A stretch of DNA of 28,005 nucleotides, taken from positions 1 to 28,005 of the IMG/VR virus record IMGVR_UViG_3300035698_003277; one strand, written 5' to 3'. The position numbers and the translations under genes are program-made. This stretch comes from a virus. Shown one piece after another: positions 765-27,964 of the stretch (within the stretch, counting starts at the first letter, position 1; each line of letters begins with the position of its first letter). The notes below the pieces were generated by a model that made no database searches, was not told where the DNA came from, and saw only the letters and a program-made list of their open reading frames with translations.

Positions 765-1192
765 TACATGCTCTCCTTGCCTATGATGCTATAGCCGGTA
801 TTTGTCGCTCCGCCAGTAAGATATATCATACGAGTCGGCGAACCTAGTTCTATGCTCATCGACAGCGTTCCGTCTTTAATTTTCCACGTTGTCGGCAGAA
901 AGGTATTAGTAACCGCCCACGATACCCCGTTTGTGGTTTCGGTGTGGACGTCTCTAATCGTATTAGTAACCCAGCCAACGTAGATTATTTGATCTGTTCT
1001 CTCCGGATCTGTCGCAATAGTAAAATCGCGCAGTTGGCACGGTAGCCACGCAGTTATGGAATTGCTACTTGCATACATCCTGTCACATGCGATTGCTATT
1101 TGAGTGGTATGCACCACCCCGGTGATTATGTACGGCCCTGCCGCTATAGCCATGACAGGCAGTAAGCACAATAATACAATTAACTTTTTCAT
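764..1192 (-). CDS. Sec-exported hypothetical protein downstream of tail genes
   Basis: The protein has a classic Sec signal peptide: MKK, a Leu/Val core (LIVLLCLLPVMAIA) and an A-x-A cleavage region, leaving a mature domain of about 120 residues. Two ATGs are available. The one at 1192 has AGGAG at 6-base spacing, while the one at 1198 sits directly on the AGGAG, so I chose 1192 (142 residues). The mature part is Thr/Ile-rich with two cysteines and looks beta-structured. No family is recognised. Export from a gene within a structural operon is unusual. Confidence 0.75.
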   Translation of the reverse strand: MKKLIVLLCLLPVMAIAAGPYIITGVVHTTQIAIACDRMYASSNSITAWLPCQLRDFTIATDPERTDQIIYVGWVTNTIRDVHTETTNGVSWAVTNTFLPTTWKIKDGTLSMSIELGSPTRMIYLTGGATNTGYSIIGKESM

Positions 1193-1201
1193 CTTCATCT
1201 C

Positions 1202-2767
1202 CTATCTTGTAGGTTTGTTATATTTCCACATATCTTTATCGCCCAGCCTTTGTATCTTCCTTTGTGTAGCGGCCGGCCGTTTTGTCTTTGCTGCTACCCC
1301 GCCCTTGCTTCCGCCAACCGGGGGAGTCTGTAACGCAAATCCCGCTTTAACTTTTGCTACCTTCATCCCCAGAGGCAGAGCTGACTTGGGACCGAGCACA
1401 GGGCGCGGGTCTCTGTCGTCAGCCTTTTTCTTCTCAGCATACTTGATCTCAGTCAGTTCCTGCCGCGCTTTTATTTCCTCATACGCACTGCCGGACAATG
1501 TCCCGAAAGTCACCTGCTTAGTGTTCGCATAAGATTGGTACTGTATCGACATTACAACCGAAGGCTCGTGAGTGTCCCATATTTTTATTACATCACCAAC
1601 CGCCAAGCGGAATCCCAACGGTACAGACATGCTACCGATATACGCTAATCTCTGTACGTAATCTTTGTAGTACCGCGCTATTGTCGCCATGTCGCCTGTG
1701 CGGTCATAGCTTGCGCTCGTGTACGCGCTTGAATTAACAATGCCTAAATCTTCATCAAGTATGGCTTGCGTTCTCTGCCAGCCGTAACGCTGGAAAGCAT
1801 TGCCGCCGTGCCCCGTGTCAACCTGCGTGCGTGCGTCGTACCCGGCAACTATATCAACCTTCAAATCTCCTCCGCCAGCTGTTGCTTTATACCGCACCAT
1901 GTTATACTTTTCATCTATGATGTAATCGTCTAGTGTCGCGGCTGACACATCACTCTTTTCTACATACGCATTGGTATATCGGTTGTCCATTATGTTGGAA
2001 AGTCCAAGTATCTGCTTAGCCTCATCTATGTCATAATCTTCAGTTATGTACCCTGTAATGTCGGGGCTGTCTACTATCACCCTGCTGGTTGTGTTGTTCA
2101 GGTCAAGACTTATCTGTATATCTTCAATGTCCCCCGGCTGTATGTATCTGTCTATCTTTTTAAGATCGACCCCTCTGATGGTCACTATATTGCCGTTAAT
2201 CCACACGGCCGAATCAAACGCTCCACCTAACAGTGTGTCAATGATTTGTTCTACGCTTTCGCCCTGCCAGGCTAATACGGGGACAGTTTTGTCTATCTTC
2301 TTTCCTGTGAAACTGACCTCTATTGTTTGCCCGTACTTCTGAGCTAAGTCACCTTTCACAGAATTTATGCATCGCCTGATGTAATGCTGTACAGAAGAGT
2401 CTGTAGTCGCTCCTGTGCTATCTAAAAACAGTCCCCAGCGATTGCCTTTGTACGCGCTGGCGGAGTGTACTGCTGTGGCCAACTCGGTAGTGTGTACACT
2501 CGAAGTGTCTTTGTACTGCTCTTTGAGTGCGACGTTGCAGAGAGATTCAACTCCCAATACCGCAGTCGGCCCGGTGCGTCCGTAATCCTGTATGCTTGTT
2601 ACTACTCCACATAATGCCACTCCCGGCTCTGGTCTTATCCACACTACGCGATTGAGCATCCGTGACGCTATGTCAGAGTCAACATACAACGTGCCCCTGG
2701 CATACCCGTTTGCCAGTTCTAATTGCGCGCCTTGCACGCGATTGCTATGCGGCCCGTTGACTTGCAT
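1202..2767 (-). CDS. Tail tip/hub protein (baseplate-hub-like)
   Basis: This 521-residue protein lies two to three genes after the tape measure gene, where siphoviruses encode distal tail, hub and tail-associated proteins. Residues 1-80 look like a beta-barrel (GTLYVDSD...VVWIRPEPGVALCGVVTSI) resembling gp27-like hub domains. The middle is mixed alpha/beta, and about 365-440 contains another barrel-like stretch (LGFRLAVGDVIKIWD). The C-terminus (430-521) is Lys/Arg/Pro-rich and probably disordered or DNA/envelope-contacting. The start overlaps the preceding stop (TAATG) with only a weak ribosome site. The hub assignment rests on gene order plus fold impression, not on a diagnostic motif. Confidence 0.6.
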   Translation of the reverse strand: MQVNGPHSNRVQGAQLELANGYARGTLYVDSDIASRMLNRVVWIRPEPGVALCGVVTSIQDYGRTGPTAVLGVESLCNVALKEQYKDTSSVHTTELATAVHSASAYKGNRWGLFLDSTGATTDSSVQHYIRRCINSVKGDLAQKYGQTIEVSFTGKKIDKTVPVLAWQGESVEQIIDTLLGGAFDSAVWINGNIVTIRGVDLKKIDRYIQPGDIEDIQISLDLNNTTSRVIVDSPDITGYITEDYDIDEAKQILGLSNIMDNRYTNAYVEKSDVSAATLDDYIIDEKYNMVRYKATAGGGDLKVDIVAGYDARTQVDTGHGGNAFQRYGWQRTQAILDEDLGIVNSSAYTSASYDRTGDMATIARYYKDYVQRLAYIGSMSVPLGFRLAVGDVIKIWDTHEPSVVMSIQYQSYANTKQVTFGTLSGSAYEEIKARQELTEIKYAEKKKADDRDPRPVLGPKSALPLGMKVAKVKAGFALQTPPVGGSKGGVAAKTKRPAATQRKIQRLGDKDMWKYNKPTR

Positions 2768-8761: not shown

Positions 8762-9649
8762 TTAGCCGTAAATAATTGAAGCGAATTTTTCGTACTGGAT
8801 CTGGACGTCAGCTACACAGTATACTTCAACTTGAGTGCCCACTCCGTACGTTGCGATATTCATTGCACTGGCTTCCACAAAGAGAGTGATTCCGGTCAGG
8901 GGATCGGTGAAGCTTGACCGCAATATACCAGGTGCCGCCGGGGGCATGGCGTTACGGAAGCACACACCTATAGCACGCGGATGCAAAGCGATATTGATTT
9001 TGTCATCACCGACTACTTTGCGCCGCTGGTCCATGACAATATCAAAACTATATTTTGTACCGAGTACGCCATTGACGATGTTGTCCTGTGAAGCCGGTCC
9101 TGCCGCGCTCCAGTCTATCCCCGCGCTCCATGCCGCTTCTTCATCGGTTCCGATGACTGTGTACTTTTTGCCAGGATAAACTTTGGCGTCATCGAGCTGT
9201 TTCTTAGCAGTCGATAGTATCGTGTAGTCGGGCGTTCCGCCGCCGGGAGAGTTTGCTTTGTTAGTGGTGATGCCGGAGTATAAATCCCACACTGCATCAT
9301 CTAGCTTGTCGATTATCGCGCCAACCCGTTCCTTCATATAGAAATCGTCGATCTTGTACTTGCTTCCTACTTGCGAAAGCCGGTCGATTGACAGATGATT
9401 TCCGTACTCAGTAGATGGCGTGAAAGTTACTTTAGTGTCGGTTGGCTGTTGGGTAGTCCACTGCCCGCCTACTACGCGAGTTCCAGCAGTTACCGCGCCC
9501 GGGATTGGGAAGGTGTCCGAATATACACCCGGGGCCAGTACATGCTTGTCGATGACTTGCAGTAGACCGGCTCGTGACCGAAAGCCTTCAGCAAACGCGT
9601 TGCCAGCTTGATCAGTTATGTCAGCCATGAATAGATTTGTCCAAGACAT
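8762..9649 (-). CDS. Major capsid protein (HK97-like fold)
   Basis: The 295-residue protein follows the scaffold gene. It shows the arrangement of P22-coat/HK97-fold major capsid proteins: a short N-arm, strand-rich E-loop-like region (TAGTRVVGGQWTTQQPTDTKVTF), the long spine helix region (DFYMKERVGAIIDKLDDAVWDLY), a P-domain (TILSTAKKQLDDAKVYPGKKYTVI) and a C-terminal strand motif. The segment INIALHPRAIGVCFRN is typical of the coat family. AAGGAG lies 7 bases before the ATG. Several hundred copies would form the shell around the scaffold. Confidence 0.85.
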   Translation of the reverse strand: MSWTNLFMADITDQAGNAFAEGFRSRAGLLQVIDKHVLAPGVYSDTFPIPGAVTAGTRVVGGQWTTQQPTDTKVTFTPSTEYGNHLSIDRLSQVGSKYKIDDFYMKERVGAIIDKLDDAVWDLYSGITTNKANSPGGGTPDYTILSTAKKQLDDAKVYPGKKYTVIGTDEEAAWSAGIDWSAAGPASQDNIVNGVLGTKYSFDIVMDQRRKVVGDDKINIALHPRAIGVCFRNAMPPAAPGILRSSFTDPLTGITLFVEASAMNIATYGVGTQVEVYCVADVQIQYEKFASIIYG

Positions 9650-19064: not shown

Positions 19065-19385
19065 TTATCGTGTCATGGATACACGAAACATGGTTGATAT
19101 CTTTTCCTTAACCTGCTTTCTGACTTGCTTTTGTAATCGGCTTGGTCTGTCGGGGAATATCTGGAAATATATATTCCACATAAACTCACGTTCTGATTTT
19201 GTTAAACATCTTACCGCGTTGGCAAACGCACATTTTCTACTGTTCTGCCTGTTGAACTGGCCTTCGGGAACAATGTAGCACCCTGTTAATTCCGCGGCCG
19301 ACATGACCTCGCAAATCGTTACCATTCCCACTACAATCATTCCTTTGGTTTGCTTCACGTGTCTGAATCTGATTACTTCGTTCAT
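19065..19385 (-). CDS. Hypothetical basic protein
   Basis: The 106-residue protein has N-terminal strands (RFRHVKQTKGMIVVGMVTICEV) and a basic helical C-terminus (LTKSEREFMWNIYFQIF...RLQKQVRKQVKEKI). GAGGCAACC precedes the ATG, which overlaps the helicase stop by 4 bases. Its place between a helicase and a winged-helix gene suggests a replication or recombination role. No family is recognised. Confidence 0.6.
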   Translation of the reverse strand: MNEVIRFRHVKQTKGMIVVGMVTICEVMSAAELTGCYIVPEGQFNRQNSRKCAFANAVRCLTKSEREFMWNIYFQIFPDRPSRLQKQVRKQVKEKISTMFRVSMTR

Positions 19386-20854
19386 GGTTGCCTCTGGTTG
19401 TAATAATAATATGTTTTTCTATCTTTTTTCTCGCAATCTATAAATCTCTTCCCCTCGCTGTTGTCACCCATCAAAATGTTTACAGCCGTGTGAATCGCCT
19501 CGCGTGTCATGCTTAACTTTTGCTGAAGCTCAACTATTTCTACTCCCCTGCCTTCTGCTTCTCTTATTACCCGCATAACCGGAGTCGCTATAATGTAGCT
19601 TGCCTGATCTCTGTCCGCAACGGTAAACGATAATCTATCCGCAAACTTCTGGTTCCAGATTATTTGAAACGTGGATATGTCCTGATTCCTAACTTTACCA
19701 GGTATCACCGTCGTAATTTTTCCTTCGCTAGTTCCGTCTGTCTTAAAACTCAGGTGAACATCGCAAGCACCCTCAATATCACCCGAACCTCTTAGCCGTG
19801 ACGATACCGAGTTATCACCGTGCTGGCTTGACTTGCGCAAGTGGTGAACAACTACCTTTGTTCCAGTCCAGCCATTTACGACTGAGAAGTAAGCGGCTAT
19901 ATCCGTACTGCTGTTCTCATCCCCACCCAATGTTCTCCGTAACGAATCGACTATTATCAAATCGTTTTCTGTCATATCAAGACTTCGTATCGCCTTAGCT
20001 AATTGAGCTTGGCACGTATCATCAAGCAGATCTATGCTCGAACGGCCGATTGCGGAAGGAGTAATGAAGTATAGTTGCATATCGTCATCAGCTCCCATTA
20101 ATTCAAGTCTGCGCGATATAACCCGATTTGTGTTTTCTGTTTCAATGATAAGTGCTTTTCCGCCATAGCATTCATACTGCCCAAGCCACTTAGTTCGTCT
20201 TCCAAGTTCAGGTAGTGTTGCATATCTAAGTCCCAAATCAAGCATAAGCATCGACTTGCCACACCCAGGCTCACCGCTGGCAACCATCGTTCCTCCAGCT
20301 GGTATCAGTCTATCAACCGCGTACAGCTCGTCTTCTGAGTGCCGTTTCATGTCAGATATCCTCATTACGTTTTGCTGCTTGATGACTAACGGCTGATCAT
20401 TCTGTATCTGTTCCTTGACCTGAGTTATGGTCATCGTTCCCGCATCGACTGCTTTCAGTAACGCAGTCGCTTTCTTCCGGTCGTGTCTCTCGCTTGCTAT
20501 ATCGCATAATCTCTCCATCCACCCGTCAATCATCTTATCAGTAACCGCATATTCCCATATGTCAGACACCCACGCCAGATACTCAGGCTTGTGGTTACAG
20601 TCGTAAAGCTTAGATACCAATTCCTTCTGGCTCACTTTATTTACAGACAAAGTTATACAGTCATCCACAAAAGCATCGACATACGAATACTTTGTCAAAC
20701 TCTTATCCATCAGTTTATATTGCTCAACAGTTTCAATCGCCTTGCCGTAGTTACCGCTCTCTATGGCAAACCATATCGACCCGCAAATGTTAGATACGAT
20801 ATAAGCCTCGTAATCTACAGCAATATTTTCCAACTTATCAATTTCGATTGCCAT
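19382..20854 (-). CDS. Replicative helicase-type AAA_25 ATPase
   Basis: This 490-residue protein has a RepA/RecA-like core: Walker A GEPGCGKS (194-201), the IIETEN strand (236-241), Walker B LIIVDS (299-304) and a V-V-H-H-L-R-K segment (335-341) followed by SRLRGSGDIEGACDV, typical of AAA_25 hexameric helicases. The N-terminal 150 residues are helical with a DnaB-N-like arrangement (YEAYIVSNI...). The C-terminal ~70 residues contain a winged-helix segment (EIVELQQKLSMTREAIHTAVNIL). It probably unwinds phage DNA with the adjacent initiator. The ATG lies inside the end of the initiator gene (40-base overlap). Confidence 0.85.
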   Translation of the reverse strand: MAIEIDKLENIAVDYEAYIVSNICGSIWFAIESGNYGKAIETVEQYKLMDKSLTKYSYVDAFVDDCITLSVNKVSQKELVSKLYDCNHKPEYLAWVSDIWEYAVTDKMIDGWMERLCDIASERHDRKKATALLKAVDAGTMTITQVKEQIQNDQPLVIKQQNVMRISDMKRHSEDELYAVDRLIPAGGTMVASGEPGCGKSMLMLDLGLRYATLPELGRRTKWLGQYECYGGKALIIETENTNRVISRRLELMGADDDMQLYFITPSAIGRSSIDLLDDTCQAQLAKAIRSLDMTENDLIIVDSLRRTLGGDENSSTDIAAYFSVVNGWTGTKVVVHHLRKSSQHGDNSVSSRLRGSGDIEGACDVHLSFKTDGTSEGKITTVIPGKVRNQDISTFQIIWNQKFADRLSFTVADRDQASYIIATPVMRVIREAEGRGVEIVELQQKLSMTREAIHTAVNILMGDNSEGKRFIDCEKKDRKTYYYYNQRQP

Positions 20855-21798
20855 GACGTTTTCCCAAGCCCGTTAATTTTATAATGGTCAATAAACTTTT
20901 TTATCTGTACCTGAGTTTGTTCATAATTAAGATTCCCAAATTGCGGTAACATATTCTCGCTTGAAAACTCAATCGCTTCTTGTAACTCAGGCAATAAGCC
21001 AGTAGTTTTTGATATTGATCCACCCGACTGCTGAGTTTTATTAAACCAGTTTGATAAAAATTTAGATATACTTTTTTTTGGATGTTTTATAGGATTGTTT
21101 ATGAGCCATTCCGAGGCTCTTAATATTTCGCCTTGAATATCGACTGCAGGATAAGCTTTTACCCATCGCTCAATGTCTTCTTTCTGAATACCAGATATGC
21201 TTAATTCTTTTTCATTAAATGTAATACGTTTTGTCGGAGGAAGCAGCCGGTTAGGTTCGTGTCCGGTTTGGACACGTGCCAAACAAACATCATTAGATAC
21301 GCTAGTAGATAATGATGTATTATATACTCTACTCTTCTCTACTCTACTCTGTGTACTACTGCGTGAATTTACTGAGTTAATGTTAGCAATAACCGAGTTA
21401 TTGTATACAGAAACATCAATCAAGCTGTATTCCTGTAAAATTACTACTTTTTCACGCCTGGAAGCAGCATTGATATATCGCTCTTGAATTTCTATGGAAG
21501 TAAGTATTCCGTGCTCTGTTAATATTCTATTATCAAAGAATTTTCTGCGCGCCATAGTGCCAATAATATTTCCGATTATTTCGGGGTCTTCACCATACGA
21601 TTTTGCCAGCAACAATTTAACATCATCATCGTATTCCATATAGTACCCTTTATCGGCATATATTTTGCATAGCAGCGCAACCATAATTCCGAAACCTTTT
21701 ACCCCGTATTCTGCCTCGATTAGTGATACCTTATTATTGTTTCTAATATCAACATCAATGTTGAAATAATCAAGGCCTATTTTTTTCGGTCTAGACAT
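20815..21798 (-). CDS. Replication initiator-like protein (DUF4373/DnaD-type)
   Basis: The 327-residue protein starts at ATG 21796-21798 (AGGTGG upstream). A start 13 codons earlier would cross the terminator of the preceding RNA and is rejected. Residues 1-100 match DUF4373: GLDYFNIDVDIRNNNKV...EYGVKGFGIMVALLCKIY...GYYMEYDDDVKLLLAK. This N-terminal winged-helix domain is common in phage replication proteins. A variable Ser/Asn-rich middle (about 140-190) is followed by a helical C-terminus. It probably binds the origin and loads the helicase encoded next. Confidence 0.8.
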   Translation of the reverse strand: MSRPKKIGLDYFNIDVDIRNNNKVSLIEAEYGVKGFGIMVALLCKIYADKGYYMEYDDDVKLLLAKSYGEDPEIIGNIIGTMARRKFFDNRILTEHGILTSIEIQERYINAASRREKVVILQEYSLIDVSVYNNSVIANINSVNSRSSTQSRVEKSRVYNTSLSTSVSNDVCLARVQTGHEPNRLLPPTKRITFNEKELSISGIQKEDIERWVKAYPAVDIQGEILRASEWLINNPIKHPKKSISKFLSNWFNKTQQSGGSISKTTGLLPELQEAIEFSSENMLPQFGNLNYEQTQVQIKKFIDHYKINGLGKTSWQSKLISWKILL

Positions 21799-21818
21799 TA
21801 TGCCACCTACTTTGCTGT

Positions 21819-21925
21819 AAAAAAAGCAACCCGGCAAGGATTGAGAAAGCTGAATACAGCAGTGCCCTCGCGGGCTTCCTTACCGGGTGAAGTTTCTTCA
21901 TAAAGTTTGTATTCAACTTTCTCAT
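21819..21925 (-). ncRNA. Candidate structured RNA / attenuator upstream of replication initiator
   Basis: The transcript from the promoter at 21932-21960 would be about 107 nt. In order on the minus strand: P1 left arm GAGAAAGTTGAATAC (21909-21923), small hairpin TGAAG-AAA-CTTCA (about 21888-21900), P2 left arm ACCCGGTAAGG (21878-21888), hairpin GCCC-GCGA-GGGC (21864-21875) with a GNRA loop, P1 right arm GTATTCAGCTTTCTC (21843-21857), P2 right arm CCTTGCCGGGT (21829-21839) and a seven-U tract. P1 and P2 arms interleave, so they form a pseudoknot or alternative antiterminator and terminator states. A 44-residue leaderless ORF (ATG 21923-21925, stop 21791-21793) also spans it. Confidence 0.6.
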
Positions 21926-21927
21926 AC

Positions 21928-22233
21928 TCATAGTATATTCTTATTTTCGCTATTTGTCAAGCCCTTTATTTCGATCCGCGCCTTCTGCTTTTCGATCCAC
22001 CGGGTCCACCTTACATCACCGCCACACCGTTCGGTAAGCTGTTCGGTAATGCCGTACTCCTCATAGAACATCAGACCGCTGCAATTCGGGCTGAAATGGA
22101 CGCCGAAATGGCATTTAAAGCACAGTGGTATCCTGTACCTCGCATCTCCGTACTCATGCTTGTGCAGGTTGTTACGCCGAATGTAATAGTGCAGGACGCA
22201 TAGACCATCTTTTTTACAGGCGAAGCAGGTCAT
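21928..22233 (-). CDS. HNH-like zinc nuclease/recombination protein
   Basis: The 101-residue protein begins at ATG 22231-22233 with GGAGG at ideal spacing and an ATGA overlap with the upstream gene. It has C3-x-x-C6, H15-Y-Y-I-R-R, then RYRIPLCFKCHFGVH (C38-x-x-C41-H42...H46), a treble-clef HNH-like arrangement as in phage recombination endonucleases that process replication junctions. The C-terminal part is helical and basic. Exact family uncertain. Confidence 0.65.
   Translation of the reverse strand: MTCFACKKDGLCVLHYYIRRNNLHKHEYGDARYRIPLCFKCHFGVHFSPNCSGLMFYEEYGITEQLTERCGGDVRWTRWIEKQKARIEIKGLTNSENKNIL
21932..21960 (-). promoter_or_regulatory. Strong promoter before structured RNA and replication genes
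   Basis: Minus-strand TTGACA (21955-21960), a 17-base spacer and TATACT (21932-21937) form a near-consensus sigma70 promoter. It lies within the last codons of the HNH-like gene. Predicted start near 21925, where the P1 left arm begins. Confidence 0.75.
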
Positions 22234-22418
22234 TTCGCCTCCATGTGATACGTTACTTCGCCTTTTGTGGCAATTTCGCACTCTTCCAATATGTCGTTAT
22301 ACTTGCCCGCACCGTATCCGGCCTTGACAATATCGACCGCCTTGGTTTTGTTCGGAGCTTCCACAAGCTCAACGTAAGCGCGATATATCGTCTCTGTGAT
22401 TATTACATAGTGTTTCAC
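22230..22418 (-). CDS. Small DpnD/PcfM-like protein
   Basis: The 62-residue protein starts at GTG 22416-22418, overlapping the preceding stop. The sequence (YVIITETIYRAYVELVEAPNKTKAVDIVKAGYGAGKY...) shows the strand-helix-strand pattern of small DpnD/PcfM-type proteins found in phages and plasmids, whose role is unclear. Its last codons hold the GGAGG of the HNH-like gene. Confidence 0.55.
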   Translation of the reverse strand: MKHYVIITETIYRAYVELVEAPNKTKAVDIVKAGYGAGKYNDILEECEIATKGEVTYHMEAK

Positions 22419-22552: not shown

Positions 22553-22567
22553 AGTAATGTCAAAAGT

Positions 22568-22630
22568 TGCAGCCGGGCGGTCTTGGAGGGGTAACGTTTT
22601 TTGAGGGGTTCAGGAACGCGCCCGGCTGCA
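22568..22630. other. Perfect 12-bp inverted repeat with 39-base loop
   Basis: TGCAGCCGGGCG (22568-22579) and CGCCCGGCTGCA (22619-22630) are exact complements. The 39-base loop contains two GAGGGGT-like repeats and a T6 run. No good U-run follows on either strand, so this is not a typical terminator. It may form a stable RNA hairpin in the leader of the small Cys-rich gene, or be a protein-binding or replication site. Confidence 0.7.
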
Positions 22631-22647
22631 TATTTAGTTAGAACGGT

Positions 22648-25004: not shown

Positions 25005-25295
25005 TTAGTTGATGTGTAAATGCGTTTTAACCGCTTCGCTTATGTCGCCAGTATATGCTATGAACTCTTTTGCTATTGCGTGTGCTTGACGTTCGCTGAC
25101 TTCGTCACCGTCAAGCGCGACCGAAGCAACAGCCTTTTGCATCGGGCTACCAATCTCGCAAACAACCATCAAGATTGTCTCTCCGATTTCGTTATATTCT
25201 AGTTTCCTACCGCGCCGCATGTTCTTGAAGTAGATAGCACCGAAGGCCTCGGCTTCTGTTTTTATCTCTCTTACCATTTCCATTGTCGTCTTCAT
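25005..25295 (-). CDS. Early hypothetical protein under duplicated promoter
   Basis: The 96-residue protein is alpha/beta and acidic at its start (EMVREIKTEAEAFGAIYFKNMRRG...). It is the first gene after the copy A promoter, with GGAGAGCAAAG before its ATG. Its first 4 codons (MKTT) sit in the shared initiation region. No family is recognised. Confidence 0.65.
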   Translation of the reverse strand: MKTTMEMVREIKTEAEAFGAIYFKNMRRGRKLEYNEIGETILMVVCEIGSPMQKAVASVALDGDEVSERQAHAIAKEFIAYTGDISEAVKTHLHIN

Positions 25296-25403
25296 CTTTG
25301 CTCTCCTTGTTAATCTTTATATACCTATTATATACTATGTCTACGCATATGTCAAGCACTTTAATATATCCAATGCTAACAGATATATGTCCAATATTAT
25401 CAT
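25291..25403. repeat. 113-bp direct repeat, copy A
   Basis: Matches 27478-27590 at 110 of 113 positions. It carries a perfect early promoter, the ribosome site and first codons, plus an upstream dyad ATATATC...GATATAT (25364-25388). Confidence 0.9.
25327..25355 (-). promoter_or_regulatory. Consensus early promoter, copy A
   Basis: Minus-strand TTGACA (25350-25355), a 17-base spacer and TATAAT (25327-25332): both boxes are exact consensus. Drives the 25295 gene and probably the recombination operon. A dyad with 7-bp arms lies about 10 bases upstream of the -35. Confidence 0.85.
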
Positions 25404-27150: not shown

Positions 27151-27482
27151 CTTTGCTCTCCTGTTGTTATCTTTATTGCGCTTGCTGGTATGGTGTGCTG
27201 GCTTACGGGGTGATCATATTCGTGCGTGTCAATGTCGATTTCCAAGTACCTACCGTCTATCTCTAACACCTGACCGCCATACACTACCGCATAATCCCGC
27301 GCCTCTTCAATCGTGCTATGCAAGTGGATCACGTGGGCGTGATACGTACCCAGATTCTCCGATTCCGGCCAGCGGTCTAGATACATATCATAAGCATCAT
27401 CTCCGTATTGAGCATACAGACTTTCTAAATTTTGTCCGTTCCAATCGGCTGCTACATGGTAGTATCTCTGCTCTCTTTTCAT
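27147..27482 (-). CDS. Early hypothetical protein under duplicated promoter copy B
   Basis: The 111-residue protein is rich in Tyr, His and acidic residues (YYHVAADWNGQNLESLYAQYGDDAYDMYLDRW...). It is the first gene after promoter copy B, with GGAGAGCAAAG before the ATG. It is unrelated in sequence to the gene after copy A, so only the promoter and initiation region are duplicated. No family recognised. Confidence 0.65.
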   Translation of the reverse strand: MKREQRYYHVAADWNGQNLESLYAQYGDDAYDMYLDRWPESENLGTYHAHVIHLHSTIEEARDYAVVYGGQVLEIDGRYLEIDIDTHEYDHPVSQHTIPASAIKITTGEQR

Positions 27483-27590
27483 CTTTGCTCTCCTTGTTAA
27501 TCTTTATACACCTATTATATACTATGTCTACGCATATGTCAAGCACTTTAATATATCCAATGCTAACAGATATATGTCCGACATTATCAT
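27478..27590. repeat. 113-bp direct repeat, copy B
   Basis: Three mismatches relative to 25291-25403, offset exactly 2187 bases. Includes promoter, upstream dyad (27551-27575) and ribosome site. Confidence 0.9.
27514..27542 (-). promoter_or_regulatory. Consensus early promoter, copy B
   Basis: Minus-strand TTGACA (27537-27542), a 17-base spacer and TATAAT (27514-27519). Identical in the core to copy A. Drives the 27482 gene and accessory block. Confidence 0.85.
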
Positions 27591-27793: not shown

Positions 27794-27842
27794 CAGCTCT
27801 GTTTTCTCCTGTTGGTTGTTTAGTTGTTTCTCTCCGCCAGCT

Positions 27843-27908
27843 GGGAATGTTAGGTTTTTTATTATTTGCCGCCACTATAGTGGTGGCGGATAATAATAAA
27901 ACATTCCC
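27843..27908. repeat. Nested inverted repeats, regulatory or origin-like
   Basis: Outer arms GGGAATGTT (27843-27851) and AACATTCCC (27900-27908) are perfect complements. Inside, TTGCCGCCAC faces GTGGCGGATA around ACTATAGT. The whole forms an imperfect 66-base hairpin or cruciform. No gene is credible here. Confidence 0.65.
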
Positions 27909-27964
27909 TATTCCGCCAATTATTTCATTGTGGCGGATAATGGCGGAAAATAATGGCGGATAAT
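27860..27964. repeat. TGGCGGATAAT iteron-like cluster
   Basis: Direct copies of TGGCGGATAAT occur at 27884-27894, 27931-27941 and 27954-27964, with a variant TGGCGGAAAAT at 27941-27951. Inverted GCCGCCA and CCGCCA copies lie at about 27867-27873 and 27912-27918. Iteron origins and multi-operator control regions look like this. The copies are concentrated in about 100 bases of noncoding AT-rich DNA. Confidence 0.65.

Follow-up and report, generated by a model that had tools for sequence, protein, structure and literature searches.

The 129-nt gap in front of the replication initiator gene of an uncultured tailed phage holds two RNA helices, P1 and P2, whose arms interleave between a promoter and a U7 tract. 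By the statistics of this one sequence, the crossing-helix structure exceeds chance. We tentatively interpret the element as a cis-acting, attenuator-like bistable leader of the replication operon that would also release a short RNA. In plasmids, the control of replication initiators by RNA has been studied in depth; the literature searched yielded no case of it for phage initiators of the DUF4373 type and nothing specific on phage initiator leaders, and a search on the HK022 put RNA also gave nothing. If correct, our interpretation would provide a compact, testable example of a phage that times its replication through RNA folding instead of a repressor, and the arm order P1L-P2L-P1R-P2R, in which no arm is common to both helices, would be a clean model for setting folding order against pseudoknot formation.

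The window, i.e., the whole stretch of DNA analyzed, is a 28,005-base IMG/VR virus record encoding terminase, portal, capsid, and tape-measure genes. These lie on the minus strand, as do the genes for exonuclease VIII, an SSB-like DUF669 protein, the Lin1244_N/DUF4373 initiator, and an AAA_25 protein. In the interval separating the DUF669 gene from the frame that follows, we also observed a 17-nt inverted repeat (22563-22635, minus strand; core GCAGCCGGGCG / CGCCCGGCTGC) with a 39-nt loop and two CCCCTC motifs. The features of the initiator locus are as follows.

21928-22281, minus strand: upstream small gene with a weak phrog_1588 match (E = 0.0013); the promoter lies within its 3′ end
21932-21960, minus strand: promoter TTGACA-17-TATACT, 11/12 consensus matches
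21791-21931, minus strand: 46-codon open frame, at most possibly coding; 44 codons from a leaderless ATG at 21925
21819-21925, minus strand: predicted 107-nt RNA unit, from +1 to the end of U7; fold z-score of −4.2, with the P1 and P2 states within ∼1 kcal/mol
21908-21924, minus strand: P1 left arm (P1L) UGAGAAAGUUGAAUACA, 17 pairs with P1R, one of them U·G
21877-21888, minus strand: P2 left arm (P2L) ACCCGGUAAGGA, 12 pairs with P2R, one of them U·G
21864-21875, minus strand: GCCC-GCGA-GGGC hairpin with a GNRA loop, present in both states by folding
21842-21858, minus strand: P1 right arm (P1R) UGUAUUCAGCUUUCUCA, partner of P1L
21829-21840, minus strand: P2 right arm (P2R) UCCUUGCCGGGU, partner of P2L
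21819-21825, minus strand: U7 tract, terminator-like, with a 3-nt spacer to P2 or a 1-nt spacer to a local hairpin
21803-21808, minus strand: Shine-Dalgarno sequence AGGTGG of rep
20815-21798, minus strand: replication initiator gene (rep), Lin1244_N/DUF4373, phrog_2562, by family matches
19382-20854, minus strand: AAA_25/helicase-like gene downstream of rep, by family matches

The near-perfect promoter of the original prediction was confirmed, with its boxes at 21960-21955 (TTGACA) and 21937-21932 (TATACT). Only two copies of a better promoter, both matching at 12/12, occur elsewhere in the window. Two 113-bp repeats that are 97% identical (25291-25403 and 27478-27590, minus strand) each carry a perfect 12/12 promoter, which is followed by a small gene. 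The transcription start is predicted 7 nt past the −10 box, at 21925, so that P1L occupies positions +2 to +18. Reading along the minus strand, the promoter and +1 are followed by P1L, 19 nt, P2L, the GCGA hairpin, P1R, a single base, P2R, UGC, U7, AGGTGG, and the initiator ATG. All parts of the complete small-RNA-like layout (promoter, interleaved arms, GNRA hairpin, and U7) were thus found in the order and places predicted for them. Less secure is the description of this RNA as autonomous: the same strand enters rep 20 nt past U7, making a cis-acting leader at least as likely. The whole element sits between the stop of the upstream gene (21928) and the initiator ATG (21798), in a gap of 129 nt compared with a median of 14 nt 5′ of related initiators (∼160 loci). 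On the plus strand, no antisense promoter of ≥8/12 was found in the leader (21799-21925); the nearest match (10/12) lies inside rep at 21617-21644, and such sites, like plus-strand promoters near the leader generally, occur at chance level.

Both helices proposed earlier are real but were described as too short. P1, reported as 15 bp with one mismatch, is an uninterrupted run of 17 pairs, and P2, reported as 11 bp with one mismatch, is a run of 12. What was counted as a mismatch in each helix pairs as a U·G wobble once the transcribed strand is considered, so that P1 and P2 are unbroken as RNA; on the opposite strand, each wobble becomes A·C and all remaining runs are of 9 pairs or fewer. For statistical comparison, we used 20,000 dinucleotide shuffles, of which none contained a 17-pair helix and only four had two crossing helices with minimum lengths of 12 and 9 pairs. 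When the window and the fetched phage and host loci (1.68 Mb; 3.35 Mb of strand, both strands scanned) were searched, the element was the strongest crossing pair, and the runner-up was AT-rich. The site also ranks among the few most unusual folds in the window. The most unusual of all is at 27841-27950, near the contig end, where palindromes are formed from repeated GGCGGA/TCCGCC and ATTATTATT motifs. A crossing pair in locus L146 was set aside as part of an unrelated repeated element. At 880-1610 (plus strand), this locus carries three tandem RNA-like units that have a promoter (TTTACAAATAYRAAAAAGTGTG...) and a 3′ end with a terminator in common but differ in their internal inverted repeats; none of the units matched Rfam above the gathering score. 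The promoter-like motif occurs at 22 places in that genome with ≤2 mismatches, compared with 0 for a reversed control, and may be a general promoter or mark a repeated small-RNA family.

Folding calculations give good support to a leader that is, on paper, bistable, with two mutually exclusive folds, as the alternative pairings implied by the arm order had suggested. Under constrained folding of the 107-nt RNA, the P1 and P2 states reach −37.2 and −38.1 kcal/mol, respectively, and 89% of the free ensemble is in P2. When the leader is extended to 141 nt to include the rep start, the values are −44.6 and −44.4 kcal/mol, with 63% in P1, and the two states stay near balance at the remaining lengths tested as well as at 25°C. 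In a growing chain, P1 is the best fold at 80 to 90 nt and keeps P2L in its loop, and P2 is the best from 96 nt onward. As P1 can form first, P2 must then displace it, form a knot with it, or lose. Accessibility of the Shine-Dalgarno sequence is alike in both states, which argues against a simple translational on/off switch through its sequestration and leaves transcription termination, release of the RNA, or protein binding. A stop at U7 is plausible but would not be of the textbook kind. The P2 stem ends 3 nt from the U-run, and the structure closest to U7 is a local hairpin (CAAUCC/GGGUUG, 21843-21827) of only −4.9 kcal/mol. This weak hairpin can still form in the P1 state; P1 would therefore be no clean antiterminator, and the sign of the switch is perhaps less clear-cut.

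As a cis-acting attenuator, the leader might work as follows. An RNA started at 21925 would begin almost directly with P1L, and folding makes P1 the best structure once P1R is made, with P2L held in the loop. After synthesis of P2R, P2 is slightly better in the folded 107-nt chain and places a strong stem just before U7. If P2 formed in time, polymerase could stop and release the ∼107-nt RNA; if P1 persisted, polymerase could continue through to rep and the AAA gene. The balance could be tipped by the initiator, by a host factor, by the speed of the polymerase, or by a ribosome from the upstream gene covering P1L. The consequence would be that rep expression is limited or timed. This interpretation is supported by helix lengths that the shuffles did not match, by the near-equal energies of the two folds and the order in which they appear, by the register of the strong promoter and U7 with the arms, by helices that are whole only in the sense RNA, by the position directly 5′ of the initiator, and by a similar arrangement at one other initiator locus (L183, below). 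Against it stand the related initiator loci without the element, the distance of the P2 stem from the U-run, the weak hairpin beside U7 in the P1 state, and the lack of an internal antisense promoter.

We searched for relatives by scanning viral contigs with rep, AAA, terminase, an initiator alignment, the peptide, the upstream gene, exonuclease VIII, and the P2 arms as a DNA pattern; further searches comprised one scan of genome contigs and BLAST of phages and plasmids. No homologue of the element was found among the phages, plasmids, IMG/VR records, and GTDB genomes searched, in scans that may have excluded records very close to the window. Rfam gave no match to the element at the gathering score, nor at E ≤ 10 in 21600-22300. 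The best initiator relatives are 32 to 49% identical, and their loci are missing the element. Single-sequence covariance models of the element gave weak matches: those in L147 and L002 fall inside protein genes and that in L110 was read as sequence only, and all were taken as chance. Structured regions upstream of the initiators in L176, L073, and L149 are hairpins unlike the window element; the one in L176 is a 24-pair hairpin directly upstream of the DUF4373 initiator gene (∼100 nt upstream of 2173, plus strand).

Several other explanations have to be weighed against a cis-acting attenuator. The 107-nt product could be an autonomous small RNA pairing in trans with phage or host RNAs, with rep expressed by read-through or from upstream transcripts. 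The strong promoter of its own, the compact structured body, and U7 would suit such a molecule, which we nevertheless consider rather unlikely: its single-stranded stretches are only short loops, a terminator at this position would inevitably affect rep transcription, and no complementary target in the window rises above the shuffled null. For duplexes with the minus-strand (mRNA-sense) transcript, the energies lie inside the span given by shuffled queries, and nothing stands out among the best duplexes at start regions. One segment of the plus strand (8881-8960), which lies opposite the capsid gene, has a score below the null. If P1 and P2 instead formed together, the RNA could be a pseudoknot bound by the initiator or another phage protein to autoregulate rep. 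The crossing order, the linkers of 19, 18, and 1 nt, and the strength of the two duplexes (−23.0 and −21.6 kcal/mol) are compatible with a knot, but full-length P1 and P2 would require threading of more than one helical turn, and RNA-binding activity of DUF4373 proteins was not found in this work; we regard this explanation as improbable. A DNA-level element (an origin, a recombination site, or a protein-binding site) is very improbable. The inverted repeats adjoin the initiator gene, and origins are often found beside such genes, but both wobbles turn into A·C mismatches when the other strand is read, arms that interleave could not extrude together, the site has no iterated repeats, and the register with the promoter and U7 is strict. 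A small transposable element bounded by P1 was also rejected, as no target duplication was seen by eye.

The open frame that crosses the element raises the question of a peptide. The 44-residue leaderless frame noted originally exists and extends to 46 codons; at one end, an ATGA joins its ATG to the upstream stop in an overlap, and at the other, its stop runs into the rep start. It fills the gap between its neighbors exactly and is placed like coupled phage genes, better than first described. It could be a small membrane-peptide gene, translated in coupling with its neighbors, with the repeats either incidental or, in the manner of type I toxin mRNAs, regulating its translation through a P1 that covers the leaderless AUG. 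The codon score points both ways, lying above that of 98.8% of off-frame pieces (in which stops are frequent) but below that of 98% of equal-length pieces from this phage's genes. The product has a basic N terminus followed by a hydrophobic stretch, but its hydropathy (1.62) is little above the 90th percentile (1.51) of shuffles retaining the repeat skeleton. The stretch is partly a by-product of the arms: the left ones, being rich in purines, give Lys/Arg codons, and their pyrimidine-rich complements give hydrophobic ones. No clear Shine-Dalgarno sequence precedes the frame, the family search gave no match, and the peptide scan of viral contigs found no relative. A peptide is not favored, and we judge it quite unlikely as the explanation of the locus; alone, it leaves the alignment of the two crossing helices with the promoter and U7 unexplained.

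Returning to the attenuator-like leader, we think it unlikely, but conceivable, that it represents a new class of phage riboregulator. In such a class, two long helices without a common arm would exclude each other only by interleaving, and the RNA 5′ end would serve as a kinetic gate between a released 107-nt RNA and the replication-operon mRNA, perhaps tuned by upstream translation.

Among known systems, type I toxin mRNAs (e.g., hok) have a small basic-hydrophobic frame and an RNA 5′ end paired far downstream. The element would resemble them in both respects, but here plus-strand promoters that could serve an antisense antitoxin RNA are seen nearby only at chance level, the frame has no family match, and the coding signal is weak. 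One of 163 initiator loci, L183 (Clostridiales contig JAJBVR010000078.1; element at 1575-1667, plus strand), has a similar layout of promoter, hairpin, U-run, and rep. Its TTGACA-17-TACACT promoter is followed by a 12-pair hairpin and U-run at ∼+1, a Shine-Dalgarno sequence, and the DUF4373 start. Unlike the window element, it has one simple hairpin, without crossing helices, and the two share no sequence similarity; the L183 leader is a possible simple analogue.

The C4 RNA (RF01695) of phages P1 and P7, raised originally as a comparison, is an RNase P product of ∼77 nt with three stem-loops, whose a′/b′ loops pair with the target mRNA (PMC5320573). As in C4, a short structured phage RNA lies upstream of, and on the same strand as, the gene it would regulate; here, however, the helices cross and the RNA has its own promoter. 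Membership was rejected: RF01695 was not matched in 21600-22300 when E values as high as 10 were allowed, and no complementary target in the window was above chance.

The rep mRNA attenuators of pT181 and pIP501 come nearer. There, pre-emptor and terminator have an arm in common, and the switch is thrown by an antisense RNA that originates within the leader (reviewed in PMC5703833). In both cases, the leader lies between the rep promoter and the initiator gene and offers alternative pairings; in the plasmids, one of these is terminator-like, with a poly-U tract just before the rep translation start. Relative to the terminator of those plasmids, U7 is present here, but the P2 stem is 3 nt away and the local hairpin is weak. 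P1 and P2 have no common arm and exclude each other only by interleaving, and no antisense promoter is seen inside the ∼127-nt leader. Because the common arm and the internal antisense promoter are missing, we do not class the element as a pT181/pIP501 type. By analogy of layout, these plasmid leaders are nonetheless its closest working parallel.
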